This document shows positions 6,763 to 41,246 of a DNA stretch of 41,526 nucleotides, piece by piece; the stretch's first letter is position 1, and each line of letters begins with the position of its first letter. Made by a program: the position numbers and the translations under genes. The notes under the pieces were generated by a model, which made no database searches, was not told where the DNA came from, and was given only the letters and a program-made list of their open reading frames with translations. This DNA is from Geoglobus sp. (lineage in GTDB: Archaea; Halobacteriota; Archaeoglobi; Archaeoglobales; Archaeoglobaceae): positions 1 to 41,526 of the forward strand of contig WAMS01000098.1 of NCBI GenBank assembly GCA_015522195.1, read 5' to 3'.

Positions 6763-7152
6763 TCAGATTACTGGCTCAAATTTTGTTCCGTAATATATTA
6801 TCCCCTCCTCTCCATCCTCTCCGTATTTTCTGAAGATGGCCCTGACTCTGGTTCCGATTTCTATGTCATCCGGATTGCAGACTATCTGTGAAATCACAGA
6901 AGGTCCGGAATCGAGCTTTATCAAAGCCACAACATAGGGCTTCTGAAGCTTGTAAGACTCGGATGAGTCATGGATAACAGTAAATGATACCACAGTACCT
7001 GTTTCTCCCAGCTCAACCTCAGCGATTCTGCTCTTCCTTCTGCACTCAGGACAGAGGTTTCTTGGAGGATAGAATTTTTTTCCGCAGTTTGTGCATTCAG
7101 TGCCGATCAGATTGTACCTGTATCTGATCTTCCTCCAGAATCTTGGAAGCAT
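6763..7152 (-). CDS. DUF35 Zn-ribbon/OB-fold partner of thiolase and HMG-CoA synthase
   Basis: Protein of 129 residues. An N-terminal rubredoxin-like Zn ribbon (CTNCGKKFYPPRNLCPEC) is followed by an OB fold (GTVVSFTVIHDS...PYVVALIKLDSG). In archaea this protein bridges acetoacetyl-CoA thiolase and HMG-CoA synthase in one complex that channels acetoacetyl-CoA. ATG 7152 is chosen because GGAGGTGAT ends three bases before it, giving an 8-base gap from GGAGG; the track start at 7191 lies inside the thiolase gene. Direct adjacency to both enzymes supports the role. Confidence 0.9.
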   Translation of the reverse strand: MLPRFWRKIRYRYNLIGTECTNCGKKFYPPRNLCPECRRKSRIAEVELGETGTVVSFTVIHDSSESYKLQKPYVVALIKLDSGPSVISQIVCNPDDIEIGTRVRAIFRKYGEDGEEGIIYYGTKFEPVI

Positions 7153-7156
7153 GTTA

Positions 7157-8311
7157 TCACCTCCTGAAAATTGAAACAACAGCAGTTGCACCTGTTCCTC
7201 CGATATTCACCGCCATTCCCCTTTCAGCCTGAACCTGTCTTCCAGAAGCATCACCTCTCAGCTGGAGAACTATTTCTCCAGCCTGTCTTATGCCTGTGGC
7301 TCCAACAGCATGACCACACGCCTTAAGACCTCCTGATGGATTTGCAGGGTACCTTCCATCAATTTCGGTTTCACCCTCTCTCACAAGCATGTGCCCTTCT
7401 CCATGTCTGCATAACCCGATATTCTCATAAAGCAAGAGTTCTGTTATCGTGAACGAGTCATGAAGCTCAAATACATCCACATCATTGAGCTCACATCTTG
7501 ACATTCTCAGAGCCTTTCTTACCGCTGTTTTGACTGCCTTCATCTCAAGTATGTTTTCTCTGCTCTGCAGTGCAATAAAATCGCTTGACTGGATTATTGC
7601 GTCTATGAAAACAGGAGTATCTGTGTACTTTCCTGCAACATCCTCACCTGCCAGAATGAGTACCGATGCCCCGTCACTTATGGGTGCGGTATCGAGCATT
7701 TTGAGAGGTTCTGCTGTGTACGGAGATGAAAGAACATCCTGAACTTTAATTTCCCTTCTGAACTGGGCTTTTGGATTTTTAACAGCATTTTTGTGATTTT
7801 TAACACTTATCCCTGCCAGATCCTCTTCAGTACTTCCGTATTCATGCATGTGCAGTCTTGCCATCATTGCATAAAGCCCGGCGAGACTCGCTCCCGGAAA
7901 TGCCTCCCACTCCTGATCTATTGTGGAATCCATTATTTCACTTGCAGAACCCACGTCTGTTACCTTTTCTGCTCCAGCAGCGATGACTATATCATGAATT
8001 CCGGATGCAACTGAGATATATGCTTCCTTCAAAGCAACACCGCCACTTGCATCTCCAGCCTCAACCCTTACTGATGGTACGTTTATCGATGCAAGTCCTG
8101 AGTAATCTGCAATGAGTGCAGAAATATGCTCCTGAGAGATGAACCTCCCACCACTCATGTTTCCAACATACATTGCCTCTATCTCCCTGCCTTCAAGATT
8201 TGCGTCCTCAATAGCCTCCGTTCCTGCCGAAATGACTATGTCCCTGAAGCTCATGTCCCAGAGCTCGCCGAATCTTGATATTCCAACTCCTATAACCGCA
8301 ACCCTTCGCAT
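7157..8311 (-). CDS. acetyl-CoA acetyltransferase (archaeal thiolase), nucleophile position altered
   Basis: Protein of 384 residues of the SCP-x/archaeal thiolase family. It would condense two acetyl-CoA to acetoacetyl-CoA, the first step of the mevalonate route to isoprenoid lipids. Visible are HDSF, GGLKACGHAVGATG with the catalytic His, and NIGGTGATAV. The expected nucleophilic Cys in the N-terminal half (CASG in well-known thiolases) reads Asp: VEAGDASGG, encoded by GAT, two base changes from a Cys codon. A Cys directly precedes the conserved GH. Operon: HMG-CoA synthase ends 4 bases upstream. Confidence 0.9.
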   Translation of the reverse strand: MRRVAVIGVGISRFGELWDMSFRDIVISAGTEAIEDANLEGREIEAMYVGNMSGGRFISQEHISALIADYSGLASINVPSVRVEAGDASGGVALKEAYISVASGIHDIVIAAGAEKVTDVGSASEIMDSTIDQEWEAFPGASLAGLYAMMARLHMHEYGSTEEDLAGISVKNHKNAVKNPKAQFRREIKVQDVLSSPYTAEPLKMLDTAPISDGASVLILAGEDVAGKYTDTPVFIDAIIQSSDFIALQSRENILEMKAVKTAVRKALRMSRCELNDVDVFELHDSFTITELLLYENIGLCRHGEGHMLVREGETEIDGRYPANPSGGLKACGHAVGATGIRQAGEIVLQLRGDASGRQVQAERGMAVNIGGTGATAVVSIFRR

Positions 8312-8315
8312 TCTG

Positions 8316-9353
8316 TCACCCCATTCTTATCTTTCTTCTCAGCTTCGCGTAAAATCCGTAATCAATGTAAACTCCATTTTTTATCTTTTCCCAAACTGTG
8401 GGATTCCTTTCAATCGAATTTATTGCCTCCCTGACCTCAATTATGAATGCATCACTTCCCGCACCACTTCCAAACGATGTGAGAAGAATTCTGTCCTCTG
8501 GCTTTGCAATATCAAGCACCGCACAGAATCCAAGAAGAGACGAACCTGAGTATGTGTTTCCTATGTATCTCACAACAAGACCCTGCTCTATCTGTTTCTT
8601 ATCAAATCCAAGCATTCTTGCCACCCTGACAGGAAACTTTCCGTTGGGCATGTGAAAGACGGCATGGCTGAAATCCTCAGGTTTAAGATTATTTCTTTCC
8701 ATGATCTCCCTTGCAGCCGTGGATACATGTCTGAAATAAGCTGGCTCTCCTGTAAATCTGCCCCCGTGGCTGGGATATGGCTGACCCTCTCTCCTCCAGA
8801 AATCGGGGGTATCTGTTGTGTAGCTCAGCGTATCTCTGATCTCAGCTATAACACCGTTATTTCCAATTAAAAATGCAGCACCACCTGCAGATGCAGAATA
8901 TTCCAGGGGATCTCCCGGAGCGCCCTGGCTTGTGTCTGCACCTATTGCAAGCCCGTACTCTATCATGCCAGACTCTACCATTGCCATGCAGTTCTGAATT
9001 CCGGCTGTCCCGGCCTTGCATGCAAATTCAAGATCTGCAGAATGAAAGAAGCTATTGATTCCGAGAGCCTCACCAACAATGGTTGCAGTTGGTTTTACGG
9101 CATAAGGATGACTTTCAGAGCCTACAAAGATTGCGCCGATGGAATTTCTTGAAACTTCTGCCCTTTTCACAGCCTCCCTTGCACACATCACCGATATTGT
9201 AGCGGTATCTTCATCTATGTCTGGAACGCTCTTCTCATAAACGCCAAGACCATTTTTTATAGCCTCTGCATTTTCACCCCATATTCTCGCAATCTCATCA
9301 GCCCTGATCCTGTATTTTGGGATGTAGGTACCGTATGAGGTTATTCCAACCAC
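8316..9353 (-). CDS. hydroxymethylglutaryl-CoA synthase
   Basis: Protein of 345 residues, typical of archaeal HMGS. It condenses acetyl-CoA with acetoacetyl-CoA to HMG-CoA. The catalytic triad positions are visible: Glu in [10 protein letters not shown], Cys in LEFACKAGT and His in FHMPNGKFP. The start is GTG at 9353 with GGAGGTG eight bases before it, lying across the end of the HTH gene. With thiolase and DUF35 it forms the conserved archaeal mevalonate-entry operon. Confidence 0.95.
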
Positions 9354-27764: not shown

Positions 27765-30700
27765 ATGATTCCTGTTTCATACGAAAACCTCTGCCCCTCA
27801 TGCGGTTCATCTCTGCTGGAAAATGAACTTCAGAGTGGGATCTGTGATAAAACCGGAAGGGGGCTGTGTTCTCATGAGATCGACGATGTATTTAGTGAAT
27901 TTTCTGAGTTCTTCAGAATGAGTGTTGGAGAGCTGAGAGCATTGCAGAAATTCTGGGGAAGAAGAATACTGGAAGGTGAAAGCTTTACAGCAGTTGCTCC
28001 TACAGGAATTGGAAAAACAACGTTTGGCATTGCAATGGCACTTTTTCTGGCAAAAAAGAAAAAGAGATCATACCTGATATTTCCAACAACCGTTTTGATC
28101 AAACAAACTGTTGAAAGGCTTTCCGAGTTTTCCAAAAGATCCGGAATAAGGGTCAGCTTTAACAGAAACGATGGAGACGTTGTCGTGGCTTACTACTTCA
28201 GTGGGATGAAAAAAAAAGGAAGTTGATGAATTTTACAGTATTCTGTCTTCTGAAAGGTATCACATTCTGGTTACAACCTCAGCATTTCTCTCAAAAAATT
28301 TTGACAGAATAGGCGGCAGGTTCAGCTTTGTATTTGTCGATGATGTGGATGCGGTGTTGAAAGCATCCAGAAATGTTGACAGAATTCTTCAGCTTATCGG
28401 TTTCAAAAAGATAAATGGAAAATGGACAGGAAAGGCAGATGGCGTTCTGATGGTTTCAACAGCAACAGGAAAACCGGGCATAAAGGCAAAGCTCTTCAGA
28501 AAGCTTCTTGGATTTGATGTTGGAGCCAGAACAGTTTTTGTGAGGAATATTTATGACATATATGTCAGGGACTCGGGAATTGGGTCTCTGAAACAGATTC
28601 TAAGTGAAATGGGACCGGGAGGCTTGGTATATGCCGGATCATCTGAAAGAGCTTCTGAAATTTTTCATGCTCTTGAAGGTGAGTTTAAAATCGGACATGT
28701 TTCGGGTAAATCAAAAAAAGATGTTGAGAGGTTTGAAAGTGGTGAAATCGACTATCTGGTAGGTACGTCACACTACTACAGCTCCATAGTGAGGGGGCTT
28801 GATCTTCCTGAAAGAATAAGGTACGTGGTTTTTCTTAAAGCACCGGTTTTCAGGGTGAAATTTGATGAAGTGAAAAAACTGAAATCCGGTTATCTTAAAA
28901 TGCTTGCCATAGTATTCAGAGATGATGAAAAAGTTAAAAAATACCTCCCCCATCTCGACAGCCTTTCCAGCAGAGAATTTGAGAAATTAAAAGCCATCTT
29001 AATAAATAAAATCGAGCATGGAGATTTTGAAGGTAGAAGAAGAGATGTGGTGGTGAGAAAAGGAGAGATTGTGTTTCCCGACATGAGAACATACATTCAG
29101 GGTTCTGGAAGAGCATCGAGGCTTTTTGCTGGCGGAATAACCAAAGGAGCATCTTTTCTGCTTGAAGATGATCCTGAAATACTTGATGCATTTATCGAAA
29201 GATCCAGAATATTTGACATAGAATTCAGAGATATCAACCAGGTGGATACTGTTTCTCTGATCAAAGAAATTGATAAGAGCAGAATTGAGCTGAAAAAGAA
29301 AGATTTTGTGGAAGATGTCGTAAAACCAACACTCTTTATTGTGGAAAGCCCCACAAAGGCAAGACAGATTGCCAGATTTTTTGGGAGAGCAAGCGTTAAG
29401 GTTCTGAAGGATGGCAGCAATGTTTTTCTCGCCTATGAGGTTCCAGCAGAAAACAGAGTGCTGATTATAACCGCAAGTTTCGGACATCTGACTGATCTGA
29501 TAACAGGAAAAGGCTTCCATGGAATCCAGACTGGTGATGCAATACGGCCCATCTATTCCTCCATAAAAAAATGCAGAAAATGCGGCTATCAGTTTACGGA
29601 AGAAAGGACGAGATGTATCAGGTGTGGAGGGGAGGATATAGATGATTCCAAGAGCAGAATAAAGATCATCAGAAAACTGGCGAGAGAAACGGGGAATGTG
29701 ATCATAGGAACGGATCCCGATGCCGAGGGTGAAAAGATTGCATGGGACATAGCAAACCTTCTGAAAGGATGTGGAGATATAAAGAGGGCGGAGTTTCACG
29801 AGATCACACAGAAGGCCGTGATAAATGCTCTTAACAGTCTGAGAGATATTGATGAGAATCTTGTGAAGGCCCAGATGATAAGAAGGATTGAAGACAGGTG
29901 GATAGGTTTCGTTCTCAGTCAGAAACTCTGGGAGATTTTTGGCAGCAAAAATCTGTCTGCAGGAAGAGCTCAAACACCTGTGCTGGGATGGGTGATAGAG
30001 AGTGCCGAAAAAAACAGAAAAAAGAGAAAAATAGCTTACATTCCGGAATTAGATCTCTACATTGAGGACGTGGAAAACGGGGAAATCGAAATTGAGGTTG
30101 AGCTCGTGAACAGCAGAAAGGATACCAGAGCTCCGTTGCCACCCCACACAACAGATACGATGCTCAGGGATGCCGGTACAATTCTGAAATTACCAGTCAG
30201 AGAAACAATGGATCTTGCTCAGGACCTCTTTGAGAGCGGTCTGATTACCTATCACAGAACCGATTCCACAACCGTCAGTGAAGCAGGGATGAAAATAGCA
30301 AGAGAATATCTCCAGGAGGATTTCTATGGGCGAAAATGGCAAGGTGAAGGAGCTCACGAATGCATCAGACCAACAAGATCTTTTGACAGGTATGATGTCC
30401 AGAGAATGATCCATGAAGGCCTGATTCATGCTGAAAACATAACCTGGAAACATCTTTCTCTGTATGACCTTATCTTCAGGAGGTTCATGGCGAGTCAGGC
30501 ACATAATCTCGTCGTTGACGTGAGAGAATACCGCATAAAGGTTAAAGACAAACTGATTAGGGAGGAAAGGGTGGTGAAGGCAACAGGCAGGGCCTATGAT
30601 CTTTATAAATCAGTCCATGTTAAATGTGAAATTCCAGAAGGAAGGCACAGATTTAAGGCAAAAATACTCAGAATCCCTGAGGCTCCGCTGCTTACCCAGT

Positions 30701-30990
30701 CGGATCTTGTGTCAATGATGAGGGAAAGAGGCATAGGAAGGCCTTCCACATACTCAACCATTGTTGAAAAGCTCTTTGAAAGGAAATATATCATCCAGAA
30801 GTCAGGAAAGCTGATTCCAACTGGAACAGGAAAGAGAATTTACAGCTATCTCGTTTCCAGCTACGGTGAATTTGTATCGGAGGAGAGAACCAGAATCATT
30901 GAGCAAATAATGAATCAGATTGAAAGGGGAGAAGCGGATTATTCGGAAACTCTGAAGGATCTTTACAGTGAGATAAGGAAAATTCTGTGA
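27765..30990 (+). CDS. rgy: reverse gyrase, interrupted by a frameshift at an A9 tract
   Basis: Two adjacent frames together encode about 1074 residues, the normal reverse gyrase size. Part one (27765-28226) has an N-terminal Zn finger (CPSC...C...C) and Walker A APTGIGKTT. Part two continues from about 28210 in another frame (KEVDEFYSILSSERYHILVTTSAFL) through DDVD, GSGRASRLFAGG, the TOPRIM motifs VESPTKA and DPDAEGE, a second Zn finger (CRKCG...CIRCG) and the topoisomerase Tyr in ITYHRTDST. Removing one A restores a single frame. It may be a sequencing error, transcript slippage or a recent mutation. Function: ATP-driven positive supercoiling, a hyperthermophile hallmark. Confidence 0.9.
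28209..28217 (+). other. A9 homopolymer at the reverse gyrase frameshift
   Basis: Reading ATG-AAA-AAA-AAA-GGA-AGT-TGA ends the first frame. With eight A the reading is ATG-AAA-AAA-AAG-GAA-GTT-GAT-GAA and joins the second frame without a stop. The coding style is unchanged on both sides. Confidence 0.9.
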
Positions 30991-35055: not shown

Positions 35056-35325
35056 TCAGGCAAATCTTTCAACAGTATCGTCATCACCAAGATTCAGAGC
35101 ATTTTTCAGTGATTCAAGCCTCTCGTCACAGTAATTCAAGAACCTAAGAAGCTCTTCCGACCCAATTCTACCGCTTTTCAGAAGAAGCTCCGCATAGTTT
35201 TCTGCAATCTCAATATCATCCTTGAACATGAAGTAGGCCGAAACATCCTTCAACTCCAGATATCTGCTGTACCATCTATCAATTGAAGCGTAAAGATAGT
35301 CAAGCTCAGAATTCAATGCTTCCAC
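35056..35325 (-). CDS. small helical protein, unknown function
   Basis: About 89 residues of alpha-helical character (LNSELDYLYASIDRWYSRYLELKDVSAYFMFKDDIEIAENYAELLL...). Not recognised. GTG 35325 is chosen because GAGGGGG precedes it at a good distance; the track start TTG 35343 lacks one. The first 20 bases overlap the small Cys-rich gene upstream, so the two are coupled. Confidence 0.68.
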   Translation of the reverse strand: MEALNSELDYLYASIDRWYSRYLELKDVSAYFMFKDDIEIAENYAELLLKSGRIGSEELLRFLNYCDERLESLKNALNLGDDDTVERFA

Positions 35326-35434
35326 ACCCCTTCGCCCCCTCAATCAAGGCGAGATAAAAGGGACATTTTCTGCAATTTTCAAAGCTCTGCTCCTTTTCAG
35401 GACATTCAGTGCTTGTGTCATATATGCATTTCAT
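35306..35434 (-). CDS. small Cys-rich protein (42 residues)
   Basis: Absent from the track because it is short: ATG 35434 to TGA 35306, beginning MKCIYDTSTECPEKEQ, then ENCRKCPFYLALIEGAKGC. Five Cys, including a CxxC, suggest metal binding. The A/T block TTTTTAAAATTTTT on the same strand ends about 12 bases upstream, consistent with a promoter. It overlaps the following gene by 20 bases, as expected for coupled translation. Function unknown. Confidence 0.66.
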   Translation of the reverse strand: MKCIYDTSTECPEKEQSFENCRKCPFYLALIEGAKGCGSIEF

Positions 35435-35474: not shown

Positions 35475-35741
35475 TTACTCCCTCTTCTCAAACCACCTGC
35501 AGTTCTTTATAACCGTGTACTTGCTTATGCACCAGTAGAAAGGCCAGTGGATTATCTTGCAGTATCCAACAAGATCTGCCGGTGGGAATTTTGTGTTTGG
35601 AATTATTGGTTTCAACCACCTGCACCCCTTGCAGATATGTGGGAACTGTTTGACAAATTCCTCCTGCTCCTCTGTCCAGACTGCCGGTTTAGGTCCTGCA
35701 TTTTCCGGAAAGCTGAATTCAAACTTTGCATGGGACGTCAT
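35475..35741 (-). CDS. small Cys-containing protein of the CoA-transferase operon
   Basis: About 88 residues with five Cys: HICKGCRWLKP, VGYCKII, FYWCISKYT and KNCRWFEKRE. The aromatic and Cys-rich spacing suggests a metal-binding or small structural subunit. Not recognised. GGAGGAG precedes the start region; ATG 35741 is preferred, ATG 35747 is possible and would overlap the previous stop. It is last in a four-gene operon, so it may be a subunit or assembly factor of the CoA-transferase. Confidence 0.78.
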   Translation of the reverse strand: MTSHAKFEFSFPENAGPKPAVWTEEQEEFVKQFPHICKGCRWLKPIIPNTKFPPADLVGYCKIIHWPFYWCISKYTVIKNCRWFEKRE

Positions 35742-35746
35742 GACCA

Positions 35747-36250
35747 TCACTCCTCCAGATGCTCCTCCTCAACCTCTTCTCCAACCTTGAACCTGCCATA
35801 CACCGGTTTCCCCGGATAGCTGTCCTTCTCCCAGACATCCTTGCTCTTCGTTCTGTCGATCCAGGCAAATCTCCTGCTCTCGATAACCCCGGCCTTCTTT
35901 GGCTGATTTGGAGTAGCTCGTATAAACTTCCCTCTGAAGTTTTCCGTCCTTATTCTTGCCTTTCCTGTATACGTCGCCGGATCCCTCATGAGACCGTAGA
36001 ATGGCCTTGTTTTACCCTCCGTTCCGACCTTTATTGCTTCGTATCCTCTGTCAGGATTGTCTGCGTAGAGTGGAAGAACATCAGCCTCCTCATCAACCTC
36101 TGTCGGGCCTTCAAGGAGCATACCGTTTAGAAACCTGAATCTTGCCACTTTATCGCAGCCTGCACACTTCACCTTCCCCTCGAAGTTCCAGAAGTAATAC
36201 GGATCAAGGTAGTTCACCCATCCACACTCATGCTCCCAGTAATAAACCAT
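35747..36250 (-). CDS. unknown Cys-containing protein of the CoA-transferase operon
   Basis: Protein of about 167 residues beginning MVYYWEHECGWVNYLDPYYFWNFEGKVKCAGCDKVARF. Cys 9 and the later CAGC form a plausible zinc site. The middle (YADNPDRGYEAIKVGTEGKTRPFYGLMRDP) and the acidic C terminus are not recognised. The start is ATG 36250 after GAGGGGG; the longer track frame runs into the CoA-transferase gene. The 13-base gap upstream and near-contact downstream place it in one operon. Confidence 0.84.
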   Translation of the reverse strand: MVYYWEHECGWVNYLDPYYFWNFEGKVKCAGCDKVARFRFLNGMLLEGPTEVDEEADVLPLYADNPDRGYEAIKVGTEGKTRPFYGLMRDPATYTGKARIRTENFRGKFIRATPNQPKKAGVIESRRFAWIDRTKSKDVWEKDSYPGKPVYGRFKVGEEVEEEHLEE

Positions 36251-36263
36251 CTGCATCACCCCC

Positions 36264-37694
36264 TCAGATGATTCCCTTCTCCCACAGTTCCTTGAGCTTT
36301 GGAAGCGGATATCCAAGCAGCTCGTGATAGATCCTGATGTTGTCGGCTCCAATCGGTCTCCATACCCACTTCACCCTCGGTGGTGTCTCGCTCATCTTCA
36401 CAGTAGCTCCATGTGTCAGCACATCTCCAAAGATCGGATCGTCAACCCATCTCAGAGTCCCTCTCTCCCAGAAGTGCTCGCATTCATAAACGTCTTTTGC
36501 CGAGAAAACGGGGACGGCTATGAGGCCGGCATTGTTGAGGGTCTCCACCACCTCATTCCTTGACTTGTCTGAGGCCCATTCCTCAAGAGCCCGGTATATC
36601 TCGATCTGAGCCTCAGGCTTCACCCTCTCCCTTGCACTTGAGTATTTCTCCCACAGATCAGGTCTGCCAATGACATAGCAGAGTTCTCTGAAATCCTCAT
36701 CCTGGAAGGCTGAGACCATCACATATCTGCTCTCGACACTTATCTGCGGGTTTGGATGCTCGGGTTCATCTGTCTTACCTGTCATTATAATGCCGTGCAC
36801 CGAAAGCAGCGTATCCCAGTTGCCCCACCTCTGCCTGACAACTCCGAATCTACCGTACAGGGGAAACGCATATCCTGTCGCTCTTGTGGAGCAGCTTATC
36901 TGGCTGAGGTCGATGAATGTTCCAAGGCCGGTCTTTCTCCTGTAGTGAGCTGCAGCAAGCACTCCAATAAGTCCTGTCAAACCGGAATACCAGTCAATGA
37001 GCCAGTTTGTCTGCTTTGTCGGATGTCCTCCAAAGTCCTCATGCCATCCTGTTATTGCCGCAAGCCCTCCGACAGCCTGTCCGAGAATATCGTAGCTACC
37101 ACCATATCTTCTCGGCCCGTAATTTCCGAATCCACCAAGATAGATGTATATGAGCCTTGGATTGACCTCCTTGAGCTGTGGGTAACCTATGCCCCACCTG
37201 TAGAATGTTCCGGGTCTGTAACATTCTGCCATGCTGTCTGAAATTCTTATGAGATCATAGTAAAGCTCCTTTGCTTCAGGGGCATGATAGTCCAGAGTTA
37301 TGAAGTACTTGTTGTCATTGGCATGGAGAAATCCCATTCCCGTTCCGACCATAGGTCGGTGGTCTGTCTCTGGCCAGAGGTAGGCTTCGTTGAATGGTGA
37401 GGTGTGTCTCATCGGGTCTCCAAGCTTCGGCATCTCTACCTTTATGACCTCCGCCCCGAACTCTCCGAGAGTGGCTCCAACATGGGGGCTGAGGATGTAC
37501 ATGGTTGACGAGATGTGTCTCCATCCCTTGAGCGCTTCAGGCTTCTCCCAGACTTTGTCAGGATCAAACATCCTTCTGCAGTACTCCTCAAAGGGAATTT
37601 TTTCCAAGTCATCTCCAGTAACCGGATCTGTATCCCTCGGAGGATCAAAACTCCAGCTTCCGGGTGGGTTAGGATCCCAAACCTTTTTCTCCAT
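36264..37694 (-). CDS. class III (CaiB/BaiF) CoA-transferase, catalytic-type subunit
   Basis: Protein of 476 residues. The fold signature is clear: [39 protein letters not shown], and [20 protein letters not shown], whose Asp near residue 200 matches the catalytic Asp of formyl-CoA transferase (YDxxxQAxxG). A ~30-residue N-terminal extension makes it longer than usual members (~400). It would transfer CoA between carboxylic acids through an aspartyl-CoA intermediate. GAGGTGAT precedes the start. Partner and substrate are discussed in the findings. Confidence 0.9.
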
Positions 37695-37703
37695 CATATC
37701 ACC

Positions 37704-39218
37704 TCACTCATGGTACCAGGTAGTAACACCCTCTCTTGCAAGCTTCTTTATCTCCTCAGGCCCAACGCCAAGATATCTCGCGAATATCTCTCCGTTATCG
37801 AGGCCAAGGGGTCTGCCAACCCACTTAATCCTTGCTGGAGTTCTGTGCTGATGTGCGAGGGGTGAGTTTGAGATCAGAACCCTCCCGTAGTGCTCGTCCA
37901 TGATTTCCATAACATGTCCTCTGTAGACGAAGTGCTCGTATTCTGCGATCTCATCTATCATGAGAACCGGAGCTGCTGCAACCTCTCTTGCGTTCATCTT
38001 GGCTTCAGCCTCAGCTCTGGTGTTGCTGACAAGCCAGTGAGCTGTGACTGTGTAGGTTTTTATGAGTCCCTCAAGTGCATTTCTTGCAGCCATTTCCTTC
38101 AGGAAAGGATCCTCAGCAATCAACCTGGCTCCTTCAGGATCCTCCTGAGCAATAACCTGCAGAATTCTGTACCACAGTCTGTCAGACTGTCCTCCTATCA
38201 TCATGTAACCATCCTTGCACGGATTCCATGCATACTGATTGAGGTTGGGATCCCACCCTCCAATTCTTGCCTTTATGCTTCCATCATACGCGTACCAGCT
38301 TATGTTGAAGTCCAGAATCTCCATGTAGCTTTCAGCTGATGTTGCCTCAATGAACTGTCCTCTTCCGCTCACATTCTCTCTGTAGTAGAGGGCTGCCAGA
38401 ATCGCAACAGTCCCCCACACTCCTGCTACAATATCGCCAACCCACTCTCCAGATCTCGTTGGGTTTCCTCCAAACTCCCTCGGCAGCAAGTCAGCAGGGA
38501 ATCCAGTTGAATGGACATACTCACTTGCAGACAGGCCAACAGGATCGAGCATCCACTGTCCGTACTTGGATACCCTGTCTTTCATAGAGCCCCACTGTCC
38601 GAGCTGACCGAACCATGCGTATATCAGCTTTGGATTGATTTTGCTGAGCTGTCTGTAGCCGATCCCCCATTCGTCAAATGTTCCCGGCGGGTAGTTTTCA
38701 AGGACTATGTCAGCATGAACTGCAAGCTTCTTGAACAGCTCCCTGCCCTTCTCGGTTTCAAGATTGAGTGTTATCGAGTACTCATTTCTGTGCTCGTGGA
38801 TGAACGTTGGGCTGACCTTCTCTCCGGTGTAGATGTCTTCAAATGCGTACTCCTCCCTGCCAAAGGGGTACCAGTATCTCTGCGGGTCACCCTCAATAGG
38901 CTCCACCTTTATCACGGTTGCCCCGAGCTCACCGAGATAGCTTGCCGCAATTGCCCCTGCCATTCCCATGACAGTACAGTCCAGAACGATGAGACCATCA
39001 AGGGCCCAAGGCTTTCCAACTGCCTTTCTGTAGTGGATGTTCTCCTCAACGAATTCACCGTAACTGCCATCCGGGTCTCTCGGGTCTTTGACCCACGGGG
39101 CATACAGCTCTTCCCTTTTTCTTGGCTCCGTTACAGGCCATGGTCTTGGCAGAAGTGTGTCCTTTACGTCGTTAATTTCCAGTTCCACATACTTTTCCTC
39201 ATACTTTTCGTCACTCAT
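37704..39218 (-). CDS. class III CoA-transferase-like subunit lacking the obvious catalytic Asp
   Basis: Protein of 504 residues with the same fold (LGELGATVIKVEPIEGDPQRYWYPFG, SITLNLETEKGRELFKKL, GTFDEWGIGYRQL). The segment aligned with [10 protein letters not shown] reads KYGQWMLDPVG, so the Asp position appears to be Gly. A ~45-residue N-terminal extension precedes the fold. Together with the next gene it probably forms an unequal heteromer, as in benzylsuccinate CoA-transferase BbsEF. The start ATG 39218 follows GGAGGTG. First gene of the operon. Confidence 0.88.
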   Translation of the reverse strand: MSDEKYEEKYVELEINDVKDTLLPRPWPVTEPRKREELYAPWVKDPRDPDGSYGEFVEENIHYRKAVGKPWALDGLIVLDCTVMGMAGAIAASYLGELGATVIKVEPIEGDPQRYWYPFGREEYAFEDIYTGEKVSPTFIHEHRNEYSITLNLETEKGRELFKKLAVHADIVLENYPPGTFDEWGIGYRQLSKINPKLIYAWFGQLGQWGSMKDRVSKYGQWMLDPVGLSASEYVHSTGFPADLLPREFGGNPTRSGEWVGDIVAGVWGTVAILAALYYRENVSGRGQFIEATSAESYMEILDFNISWYAYDGSIKARIGGWDPNLNQYAWNPCKDGYMMIGGQSDRLWYRILQVIAQEDPEGARLIAEDPFLKEMAARNALEGLIKTYTVTAHWLVSNTRAEAEAKMNAREVAAAPVLMIDEIAEYEHFVYRGHVMEIMDEHYGRVLISNSPLAHQHRTPARIKWVGRPLGLDNGEIFARYLGVGPEEIKKLAREGVTTWYHE

Positions 39219-39281: not shown

Positions 39282-40364
39282 TTAACGATTTTGTCCAACC
39301 CTCTCATAAATCCTCCTGAATTCTTCTATTTCAAAAGCCTCGGCCACACGTCCACATTCATAAAGAGCTGAACCATATAAAGCTCTGTACTTTGGATTGC
39401 CATACATTGAAACCAGTTTTTTAAAGAAACCAGCAGCCTTCTCGAACTTTCCGGCATTCATGGCTGCCATCCCTGCTATATACAGTGCCTCTTCGCAGGA
39501 GTTTTCGATGTAATTCTGCAGCATTTCTTCAACAGCTTCAATTTCCCCCCTGTCAGCCTTTATGGATGCGAGTCCAAAGATTGCTTCCCTGTCATTTCTG
39601 TCCTCAAGTTCAAGATGGGCGGCAAGAGAGTATTCAGCTTCCACAAAAAGTCCTGCTCCAAGTGCAGCTTTTGCACATTCCTTCAAAGATCTGTCAGGTG
39701 ATAGTTCTCTGATCGCATTGAAATATGATTTCTCAAGTATGATACCTGTAACGTCACCGGATGCATAGTATCCATGTCCGGGGAAGATGTGGTTGATGTT
39801 AAGTTTTTTAAGATGTCTCAGCGTTATAATGAAGTTTTTAAGTGATCCTCCCAGGTTTTCATCGTAAACTGGATGGGTTATTACCGCATCTCCTGAAAAT
39901 AAGATTTCACTTTCACTGCCATACAGACAGATGTGGTCGAATGTGTGGCCGGGGGTATCAAGAACTCTATACCTCTCATCCCCCAGTTCTATCTCCTCAC
40001 CTCCCTTCAAACCGATCACTTTCACGTTCTTTCCAAAAATTCTGATCCTTCTTTCCAGGACATCTTTCATAGAGGCATGCACAAACACACTTACTCCATC
40101 AAAATCTTCATGACTTCTCAGGAGATCAAAGAGTCCCAGTGTGTGGTCATTATGAGAATGGGTGAGAAAAACTGAGGATATTTCTGAGATTTTACCCACC
40201 CTGCTGAACTCAAAAAACGCTGTGTAGTCATTTCCGGTGTCAATCAGCATACCGTCCTCTTTAAAGTAGTAGAGATTGGATGAATTTTCAAATCCTTCAA
40301 GGAAGTAGATACCCTCAACTCCTTCAATCTGGATCCAGCTGTAATCCTGTTCCTGGAGGTTCAT
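39282..40364 (-). CDS. metallo-beta-lactamase-fold hydrolase with TPR-like C terminus
   Basis: Protein of 360 residues. The first ~210 residues are an MBL fold: FLTHSHNDHTLG (HxHxDH), DTPGHTFDH, LFSGDAV and FPGHGYY metal ligands. The rest consists of helical pairs with TPR-like spacing (CEEALYIAGMAAMNAGKFEKAAGFFKKLV). It could be a thioesterase or hydrolase held on a partner by the repeats. It begins one base after the stop of the unknown AbrB-like gene and lies upstream of the CoA-transferase operon (63-base gap). Confidence 0.87.
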   Translation of the reverse strand: MNLQEQDYSWIQIEGVEGIYFLEGFENSSNLYYFKEDGMLIDTGNDYTAFFEFSRVGKISEISSVFLTHSHNDHTLGLFDLLRSHEDFDGVSVFVHASMKDVLERRIRIFGKNVKVIGLKGGEEIELGDERYRVLDTPGHTFDHICLYGSESEILFSGDAVITHPVYDENLGGSLKNFIITLRHLKKLNINHIFPGHGYYASGDVTGIILEKSYFNAIRELSPDRSLKECAKAALGAGLFVEAEYSLAAHLELEDRNDREAIFGLASIKADRGEIEAVEEMLQNYIENSCEEALYIAGMAAMNAGKFEKAAGFFKKLVSMYGNPKYRALYGSALYECGRVAEAFEIEEFRRIYERVGQNR

Positions 40365-40365
40365 G

Positions 40366-40800
40366 TTATTCAGCGTACGGCAGGGTATAGGAAAGCTTTA
40401 ATCTATCCTCTGCCCAGATTCTTCTCTCCTTTATCTCCCCTGAATAGACCTCAGTTTCCTTACCATCCTGCACAACACTCTCCACAACAAGTTCCAGAAA
40501 ATGCCATGCTGTGAGCTTGTACCTTGCTATGAAATCATGGTCAACAACAACAGCCATTCCGGTGAACCTTGATGTTTCCCATTCAAACTCCTCATTGGGC
40601 TCTGCAACAACATCCCCTGTTGATCCAGAATATACCTTTGTAACCTTGCCCTTTATCTTGTCACCGGGTTTAAGGTTGTACTCCTCATAAAGCTCCTTCG
40701 GAAGGTAGAACCACAAGGCCTCCTCGTTCTTTGCCCTCACATAACCTCTAACAAGCATTGGATCGTATCCACACAATATCACTCTCATCTTTTCAGGCAT
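40366..40800 (-). CDS. unknown protein, possible AbrB-like beta segment
   Basis: Protein of 144 residues. LWFYLPKELYEEYNLKPGDKIKGKVTKVYSG resembles the SpoVT/AbrB pattern of a Pro-Lys-Glu strand followed by LKPGDKI, but the surrounding sequence does not match a known regulator. ATG 40800 follows CAGGTGAT and is preferred to the TTG in the track. Probably co-transcribed with the MBL/TPR gene and divergent from the next gene. Confidence 0.75.
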   Translation of the reverse strand: MPEKMRVILCGYDPMLVRGYVRAKNEEALWFYLPKELYEEYNLKPGDKIKGKVTKVYSGSTGDVVAEPNEEFEWETSRFTGMAVVVDHDFIARYKLTAWHFLELVVESVVQDGKETEVYSGEIKERRIWAEDRLKLSYTLPYAE

Positions 40801-40895
40801 GCTATCACCTGACAAACTTCCTCATTATAAACTATTTAAGATTTTTTGTTTTAAATTATCCGAAACTGCTTTTAAATCGTAAAGAGTTTGCAGAC

Positions 40896-41246
40896 ATGCC
40901 CATGGAAGAGAGAGGATCCGAACTGAATTTTGAGTATGATGGAAAGATGATTAAATGTCAGTTTCTCGAAGTAGCGAAGGGCTACGAGACCGTTGTAATT
41001 TTTGTTGAAATTCCTGGAGGAGAACATGCTGGGTTTTCAGTAAAAAAAGGTGACAGAATTGTTGCGAAAGGGGAGATTGCAAAAGCCATACGGGAGGCAG
41101 GGATTCAGGGTATTGAAATGGCCGTCCCTCCTCCGGCAGATTCTAACGCCCTTATAATGGTGCGGGTAACCGTCCCTTTCGAGTCAGTTCGGAAAAGATT
41201 GATGGAGGTTCTCTTCAAAGAAATCAAATCAAGGGGTCTTGTGTAA
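40896..41246 (+). CDS. small protein of unknown function
   Basis: Protein of 116 residues (MPMEERGSELNFEYDGKMIKCQFLEVAKGYETVVIFVEIPGGEHAGFSVKKGD...) with alternating beta-rich and helical parts, not recognised. TTTTAAATC about 22-28 bases upstream supports ATG 40896; the 46 extra residues of the track cross the promoter and are rejected. ATG 40902 is a close alternative. Confidence 0.75.
   Translation: MPMEERGSELNFEYDGKMIKCQFLEVAKGYETVVIFVEIPGGEHAGFSVKKGDRIVAKGEIAKAIREAGIQGIEMAVPPPADSNALIMVRVTVPFESVRKRLMEVLFKEIKSRGLV

Follow-up and report, generated by a model that had tools for sequence, protein, structure and literature searches.

The window analysed here, a 41,526-nucleotide stretch of DNA that is contig C98 of a 1.65 Mb Geoglobus sp. 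genome, contains a tightly packed block of four genes on the reverse strand, encoding two unequal class III CoA-transferase subunits followed by two small cysteine-containing proteins:

37704..39218, reverse strand: CoA-transferase subunit A, class III, 504 amino acids
36264..37694, reverse strand: CoA-transferase subunit B, class III, 476 amino acids
35747..36250, reverse strand: small zinc-ribbon-like protein, 167 amino acids, with the ligand pattern H/C, C9, x19, C29-x2-C32
35475..35747, reverse strand: small four-cysteine protein, 88-90 amino acids, the size being set by the choice of start codon

The gaps between the genes measure 9 nucleotides (A to B) and 13 nucleotides (B to the 167-residue gene), while the start codon of the four-cysteine gene overlaps the stop codon of the 167-residue gene by one nucleotide. 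Subunits A and B share a sequence identity of only 30%, and each scores 255 bits with the Pfam family CoA_transf_3 (cut-off 23.3). This domain begins at residue 72 in subunit A and at residue 55 in subunit B, so the long N-terminal extensions that a first, sequence-only reading had assigned to both large proteins are real; that of subunit A contains a conserved DTLxPRPWPVTxP motif. The open reading frames, the gaps and the Pfam matches also bear out its description of four tightly coupled genes for two unequal transferases and two small cysteine proteins. The latter, which it had not recognised, do contain cysteine motifs, and neither matches any Pfam or NCBIfam family.

The arrangement is conserved well beyond the window. 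When 394 genomes of the phylum were searched with the 167-residue protein, 14 strong homologues were found (the window included), all of them in the Archaeoglobaceae. At each of these 14 loci subunit B precedes the 167-residue gene and the four-cysteine gene comes after it; with longer flanks, subunit A is present at 13. A scan of 85,462 species genomes for subunit B gave 80 loci, all of which had to match two peptide patterns of B; their phylogenetic spread is therefore a lower bound. The carriers, which comprise heat-loving archaea and a large number of anaerobic bacteria, are Archaeoglobales, many Desulfobacterota, Desulfovirgula, Aquificota, Acidobacteria, Chloroflexota and Nitrospinae, with Firmicutes counted among the carrier phyla, and the closest loci are from Geoglobus sp. 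(97% identity in subunit B). In profile searches, the order subunit A, subunit B, zinc-ribbon-like protein, four-cysteine protein is kept in the archaea and in many bacterial phyla. Of the bacterial loci with sufficient sequence, all 63 have both small genes, in the same order and with tight spacing, by which a chance association of the four genes is rejected. Since these loci and those of the Archaeoglobaceae keep both genes after the CoA-transferase pair, the small genes are not strays, and their proposed coupling to the transferases stands in relatives as well as in the window. The conserved order supports a predicted heteromeric class III CoA-transferase with two coupled small proteins, and a physical four-subunit enzyme is possible. 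In one archaeal genus (loci L034 and L035), the L034 copy of the cluster groups with its bacterial counterparts, suggesting more than one transfer between the domains.

The conserved set is larger than the four genes to which the sequence-only reading had confined it. Profiles made from the archaeal neighbours were searched against the bacterial loci to a distance of 6 kb from subunit B, and the following neighbours were considered:

40366..40815, reverse strand: AbrB-like protein, 144-149 amino acids, with two AbrB/MazE-like stretches seen by eye; partner in 50 of 50 bacterial loci
39282..40364, reverse strand: MBL-TPR protein (metallo-beta-lactamase (MBL) fold plus TPR), 360 amino acids, directly upstream of subunit A; partner in 46 of 50 bacterial loci
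35056..35343, reverse strand: 95-residue protein of a family not recognised, directly downstream of the four-gene core; partner in 49 of 50 bacterial loci
40758..41246, forward strand: open reading frame whose last ~114 residues are kept next to the block only in Archaeoglobaceae; membership uncertain

The MBL-TPR and AbrB-like genes lie before subunit A in Geoglobus-type loci and after the small genes in bacteria. The AbrB-like protein matches the Pfam family MazE only at E=0.13, which is not significant, the 95-residue protein is probably helical, and the profile of the forward-strand reading frame gave no bacterial match. A role in anti-phage defence was rejected, the only indication being that the MBL domain weakly matches RTasMBL, which was judged generic. 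The neighbours of the block in archaea (secretion genes, tRNA enzymes and a chloride channel) are uninformative on the substrate, and no paper on this cluster was found in the literature. Elsewhere in the window (27765-30990), a reverse-gyrase-like gene appears to be split into two open reading frames of 153 and 881 amino acids, possibly by a frameshift or an assembly error.

To locate the active-site residues, subunits A and B were aligned with Frc (the formyl-CoA transferase of E. coli), YfdE and CaiB. The YDxxxQA motif, which had been read as the catalytic aspartate motif, aligns with 'YENVAQA' of Frc, which is the Tyr139 region, and is rejected in that role. Gln221 of subunit A as a replacement of the aspartate, which rested on the same misplaced motif, was dropped with it. 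In the column of Frc Asp169 ('LGDSNTG') are found 'WVGDIVAG' in subunit A and 'WLIDWYSG' in subunit B, so that both window subunits contain the catalytic aspartate, as D262 and D234, respectively. The claim that only one large subunit keeps this residue is therefore rejected; an intact aspartate in both subunits is the very outcome that the sequence-only reading had named as speaking against itself. The established nucleophile of the class III family is Asp165 of Mct (PMC9813914). In subunit B, Tyr201 (in the Frc Tyr139 column), Asp202 and Asp234 are each present in 80 of 80 homologues. In subunit A, D262 is present in 65 of 69 homologues, the other four having a serine, and the Tyr139 column is occupied by Leu224, after an inserted SKxGQW segment.

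The block as found in the window (type I) has relatives (type II) in which a short zinc-ribbon gene directly follows another A-B pair. The type II relatives of the 167-residue protein are about 125-138 amino acids long and occur in Desulfobacterota and in one genome of the phylum of Desulfovirgula; among 395 sampled Desulfobacterota genomes, 30 contain the full-length protein and eight more the short form only. In the tree, the A subunits of types I and II form sister clades, as do the B subunits, and the joint A and joint B clades are fully supported. Their common ancestor is likely to have possessed A, B and the zinc ribbon. The four-cysteine protein belongs to type I, apart from a single weak match in type II (18 bits). 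At loci L136-L150, which contain the type II pair and the short zinc-ribbon gene, one group lies beside aldolase-like and zinc alcohol dehydrogenase-like genes, identified by eye.

In the 167-residue family C9, C29 and C32 are invariant, together with an upstream histidine or cysteine. The first ligand pair is HxC or CxC in archaeal type I members, while CxxC-x19-CxxC is clear in nearly all type II relatives; two CxxC-type ligand pairs, as in a zinc ribbon, are thus present, and the metal is predicted from these motifs. Weak Zn_ribbon_5 matches were found for 12 of 55 family members. The C-terminal arm contains conserved TRP and RGxPxR..QP motifs. In the four-cysteine family H35, C37, C40, C61 and C81 are invariant, and the protein is likely to bind either a metal or a 4Fe-4S cluster. 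The AlphaFold2 model of the 167-residue protein is confident for residues 1-80 only, its C-terminal half being of low confidence, and that of the four-cysteine protein is poor (mean pLDDT 53). A Foldseek comparison of the 167-residue model with the PDB gave no match below E=1, and PDB profile searches with both small families gave no match. When 48 homologues were compared with Pfam, BssB and BssC (the small Fe-S subunits of glycyl-radical enzymes) were not among the families at E up to 1; only the four-cysteine spacing is reminiscent of them. The window also contains, at 6763-9353, probable genes for an HMG-CoA synthase, a thiolase and a DUF35-type small zinc protein (by eye). These three are a known archaeal precedent for a small zinc protein that joins two CoA enzymes.

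One dedicated acyl-CoA ligase partners the cluster and is usually encoded elsewhere in the genome. This AMP-forming enzyme, belonging to a family with about 40-61% identity in the comparisons made, is encoded close to the block at 18 of 70 bacterial loci (contig-end fragments in a few cases) and at two archaeal ones. Its presence was tested in 80 Desulfobacterota genomes at one threshold, and it was found in 28 of 30 type I genomes, in seven of eight with type II only and in none of the 42 others. Fisher tests give p-values of about 6e-18 for type I and 8e-8 for type II, which overstate independence since the genomes are related by ancestry, although the presence pattern is still nearly perfect. 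In the Archaeoglobaceae the ligase is present in 13 of 14 carriers, against 12 of 41 non-carriers. The genes adjoining it are of several kinds: a Liv-type ABC importer in Desulfacinum-type genomes and one archaeon, DUF4212 and VC_2705-type sodium symporter genes in Geoglobus, and purA and pyruvate synthase genes in another group. A second MBL-fold protein is encoded between the ligase and Liv importer genes of the Desulfacinum type (L153:8137-9030), and MBL-type genes also lie beside the ligase at loci L073, L110, L114 and L117. The best NCBIfam model for the Geoglobus ligase is acetate--CoA ligase, below the cut-off and among several sub-threshold matches; for the bacterial ligases it is a general acyl-CoA ligase model, with benzoate-CoA ligase nearly equal.

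In two of the 12 ligase-positive non-carriers, the ligase gene shares an operon with an A/B-type pair other than that of the block. One is a 2,178,400 bp genome that we take to be Archaeoglobus fulgidus, where the operon (L128:4388-10726) encodes two class III CoA-transferases together with an acetyl-CoA-synthetase-like protein and a member of the partner ligase family; the other (L130) is presumably Geoglobus acetivorans. These operons are like the cluster in having A- and B-type genes and then the same ligase family. They differ from it in that no zinc-ribbon or four-cysteine gene is nearby, the acetyl-CoA-synthetase-like gene lies in between and the A-type subunit has a tryptophan at the Asp169 position. 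The window genome itself has a second tandem class III pair on contig C48 (L036:4885-7541), with a serine for the catalytic aspartate in the A-type member, and possibly a third on contig C126, where an orthologue of the A. fulgidus B-type gene is cut by the contig end. As judged from residue conservation, the constraint lies on subunit B, and the aspartate can be lost from A-type subunits elsewhere.

When known systems are compared, the window pair has the fold family, the Asp169 equivalent (in both subunits) and the Tyr139 equivalent (in subunit B) in common with the Frc family, while its two unequal subunits, its N-terminal extensions of about 55-70 residues and its two small metal-type proteins set it apart. 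The CaiC/CaiB and BaiB/BaiF systems combine an AMP-forming ligase with a class III CoA-transferase, as the cluster does, and the caiC-caiB pairing was also seen in this analysis. These systems, for carnitine and bile-acid activation, have a homomeric transferase, no small proteins and substrates other than that of the cluster. The 'Magic' cluster of anaerobic benzene degraders (PMC13101534) combines a tandem pair of class III CoA-transferases with an AMP-binding ligase, in which it resembles the present system, and is set apart by its described partners, which are FAD oxidoreductases and MaoC proteins.

The conservation of the gene set, the active-site residues and the coupling to the ligase, all observed directly, lead us to favour, at roughly even chances, a heteromeric class III CoA-transferase with metal-binding accessory subunits, which would work with its own ligase on a small carboxylic acid. 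As predicted from the sequences, the proteins would form a complex, contain metal and transfer CoA by a prime-and-recycle logic. The ligase would make the first acyl-CoA at the expense of ATP, a priming step like that of CaiC/CaiB and BaiB/BaiF, after which the transferase would pass CoA from the product or a donor thioester to the next free acid, with Asp234 of subunit B forming an aspartyl-CoA intermediate. Because the transferase would recycle the CoA, little ATP would be spent.

Several points weigh against this proposal. Enzyme activity is on record for no member of the cluster, and no enzyme regenerating the donor thioester was found in the block. Given the low-confidence models, metal binding and binding of the small proteins to the transferase rest on motifs only. 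The ligase profiles score almost equally for benzoate, acetate and long-chain models, and the importers beside the ligase differ by lineage, so the substrate may differ too.

A wider reading is a tentative possibility: the seven-gene set with the ligase may be a machine, so far unrecognised, by which completely oxidising anaerobes activate acids or handle acyl-CoA, with zinc-ribbon and Fe-S subunits on a class III core, possibly acting on acetate or another very small acid and possibly performing chemistry beyond CoA transfer. It is unlikely that subunits A and B alone are the enzyme, with the small, AbrB-like, 95-residue and MBL-TPR proteins acting as maturation factors, regulators or a thioesterase. 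In keeping with such a division, the A/B-type pairs of A. fulgidus and contig C48 are without a zinc-ribbon gene in the flanks read, nearly all type II genomes are without the four-cysteine protein, and the AbrB-like protein resembles transcription factors. However, the zinc-ribbon gene goes with the pairs of either type and encodes a conserved extended arm typical of a wrapping subunit, and the invariable order and spacing of the first four genes in the bacterial loci also argue against it.

We regard as quite improbable that the enzyme instead moves CoA intramolecularly or acts as an isomerase or epimerase of acyl-CoAs, comparable to mesaconyl-CoA transferase or alpha-methylacyl-CoA racemase. 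Such activities do occur within this Pfam family, the glycine loop of Frc cannot be recognised at the corresponding position of subunit B, and class III Mct can move CoA within one molecule (PMC9813914). The obligate ligase partner, however, fits an acid that needs activation, and the NCBIfam mesaconyl-CoA isomerase model matches at E=2.5e-5, far below its cut-off.

As to the substrate, the class of which is a guess, a small carboxylic acid is probably to be preferred over the aromatic acid or alkylsuccinate of the sequence-only reading. The block is present in a 1,770,093 bp genome that we take to be Geoglobus ahangari, and a 3,282,536 bp genome, presumably Desulfobacca acetoxidans, contains all seven genes in order plus the ligase. 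Acetate is the only organic substrate known for D. acetoxidans. Genes for benzoate degradation are absent from G. ahangari, which makes no use of aromatics (PMC4600277). Because the genomes taken for these two species carry the cluster, an aromatic substrate is not favoured, and the symporter and the acetate--CoA ligase model point to a small acid as well; since the bacterial ligases score near the benzoate model, this evidence is suggestive only.

The least probable explanation is a transferase of the BbsEF, SptAB or IaaL kind, activating an aromatic or alkyl-substituted dicarboxylic acid. BbsEF (PDB entries 9fn0, 9fol and 9fun) is, like the window pair, a heteromeric class III pair encoded in tandem, and the two unequal window subunits fit such an enzyme. 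The nearest solved structures of the ligase family are anthranilate- and benzoate-CoA ligases, in several genomes the ligase has Liv-type importer genes next to it, and the block is present in a genome taken for that of Ferroglobus placidus, an aromatic degrader. Two papers from 2026 describe abundant tandem class III CoA-transferases and an acyl-CoA synthetase in benzene-grown cultures of anaerobic benzene degraders (PMC13101534, PMC13416013); the partner proteins given there are described in other terms than those of the cluster. The kinship to BbsEF suggested by the sequence-only reading is nevertheless not supported by the tree, in which its chain B, the only chain tested and a long branch, falls outside the clade of the window pair, together with Frc, YfdE and CaiB (99/98 support). 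The gene surroundings of BbsEF differ from those of the cluster, and benzylsuccinate-type pathway genes were not seen beside the block. We know of no small partner proteins of BbsEF. Together with the probable G. ahangari and D. acetoxidans carriers, this speaks against the aromatic explanation.

The coupling to one ligase family provides a concrete handle on the substrate, and the probable acetate-only D. acetoxidans as a carrier narrows the search for it. If the preferred explanation, a heteromeric transferase with accessory subunits, is true, the cluster would encode a class III CoA-transferase that has small metal-binding subunits of its own, of which to our knowledge no case has been described. 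The set is intact in the Archaeoglobaceae and in six bacterial groups and includes four families unknown to Pfam and NCBIfam, which points to an important, as yet unassigned step in anaerobic carbon metabolism.

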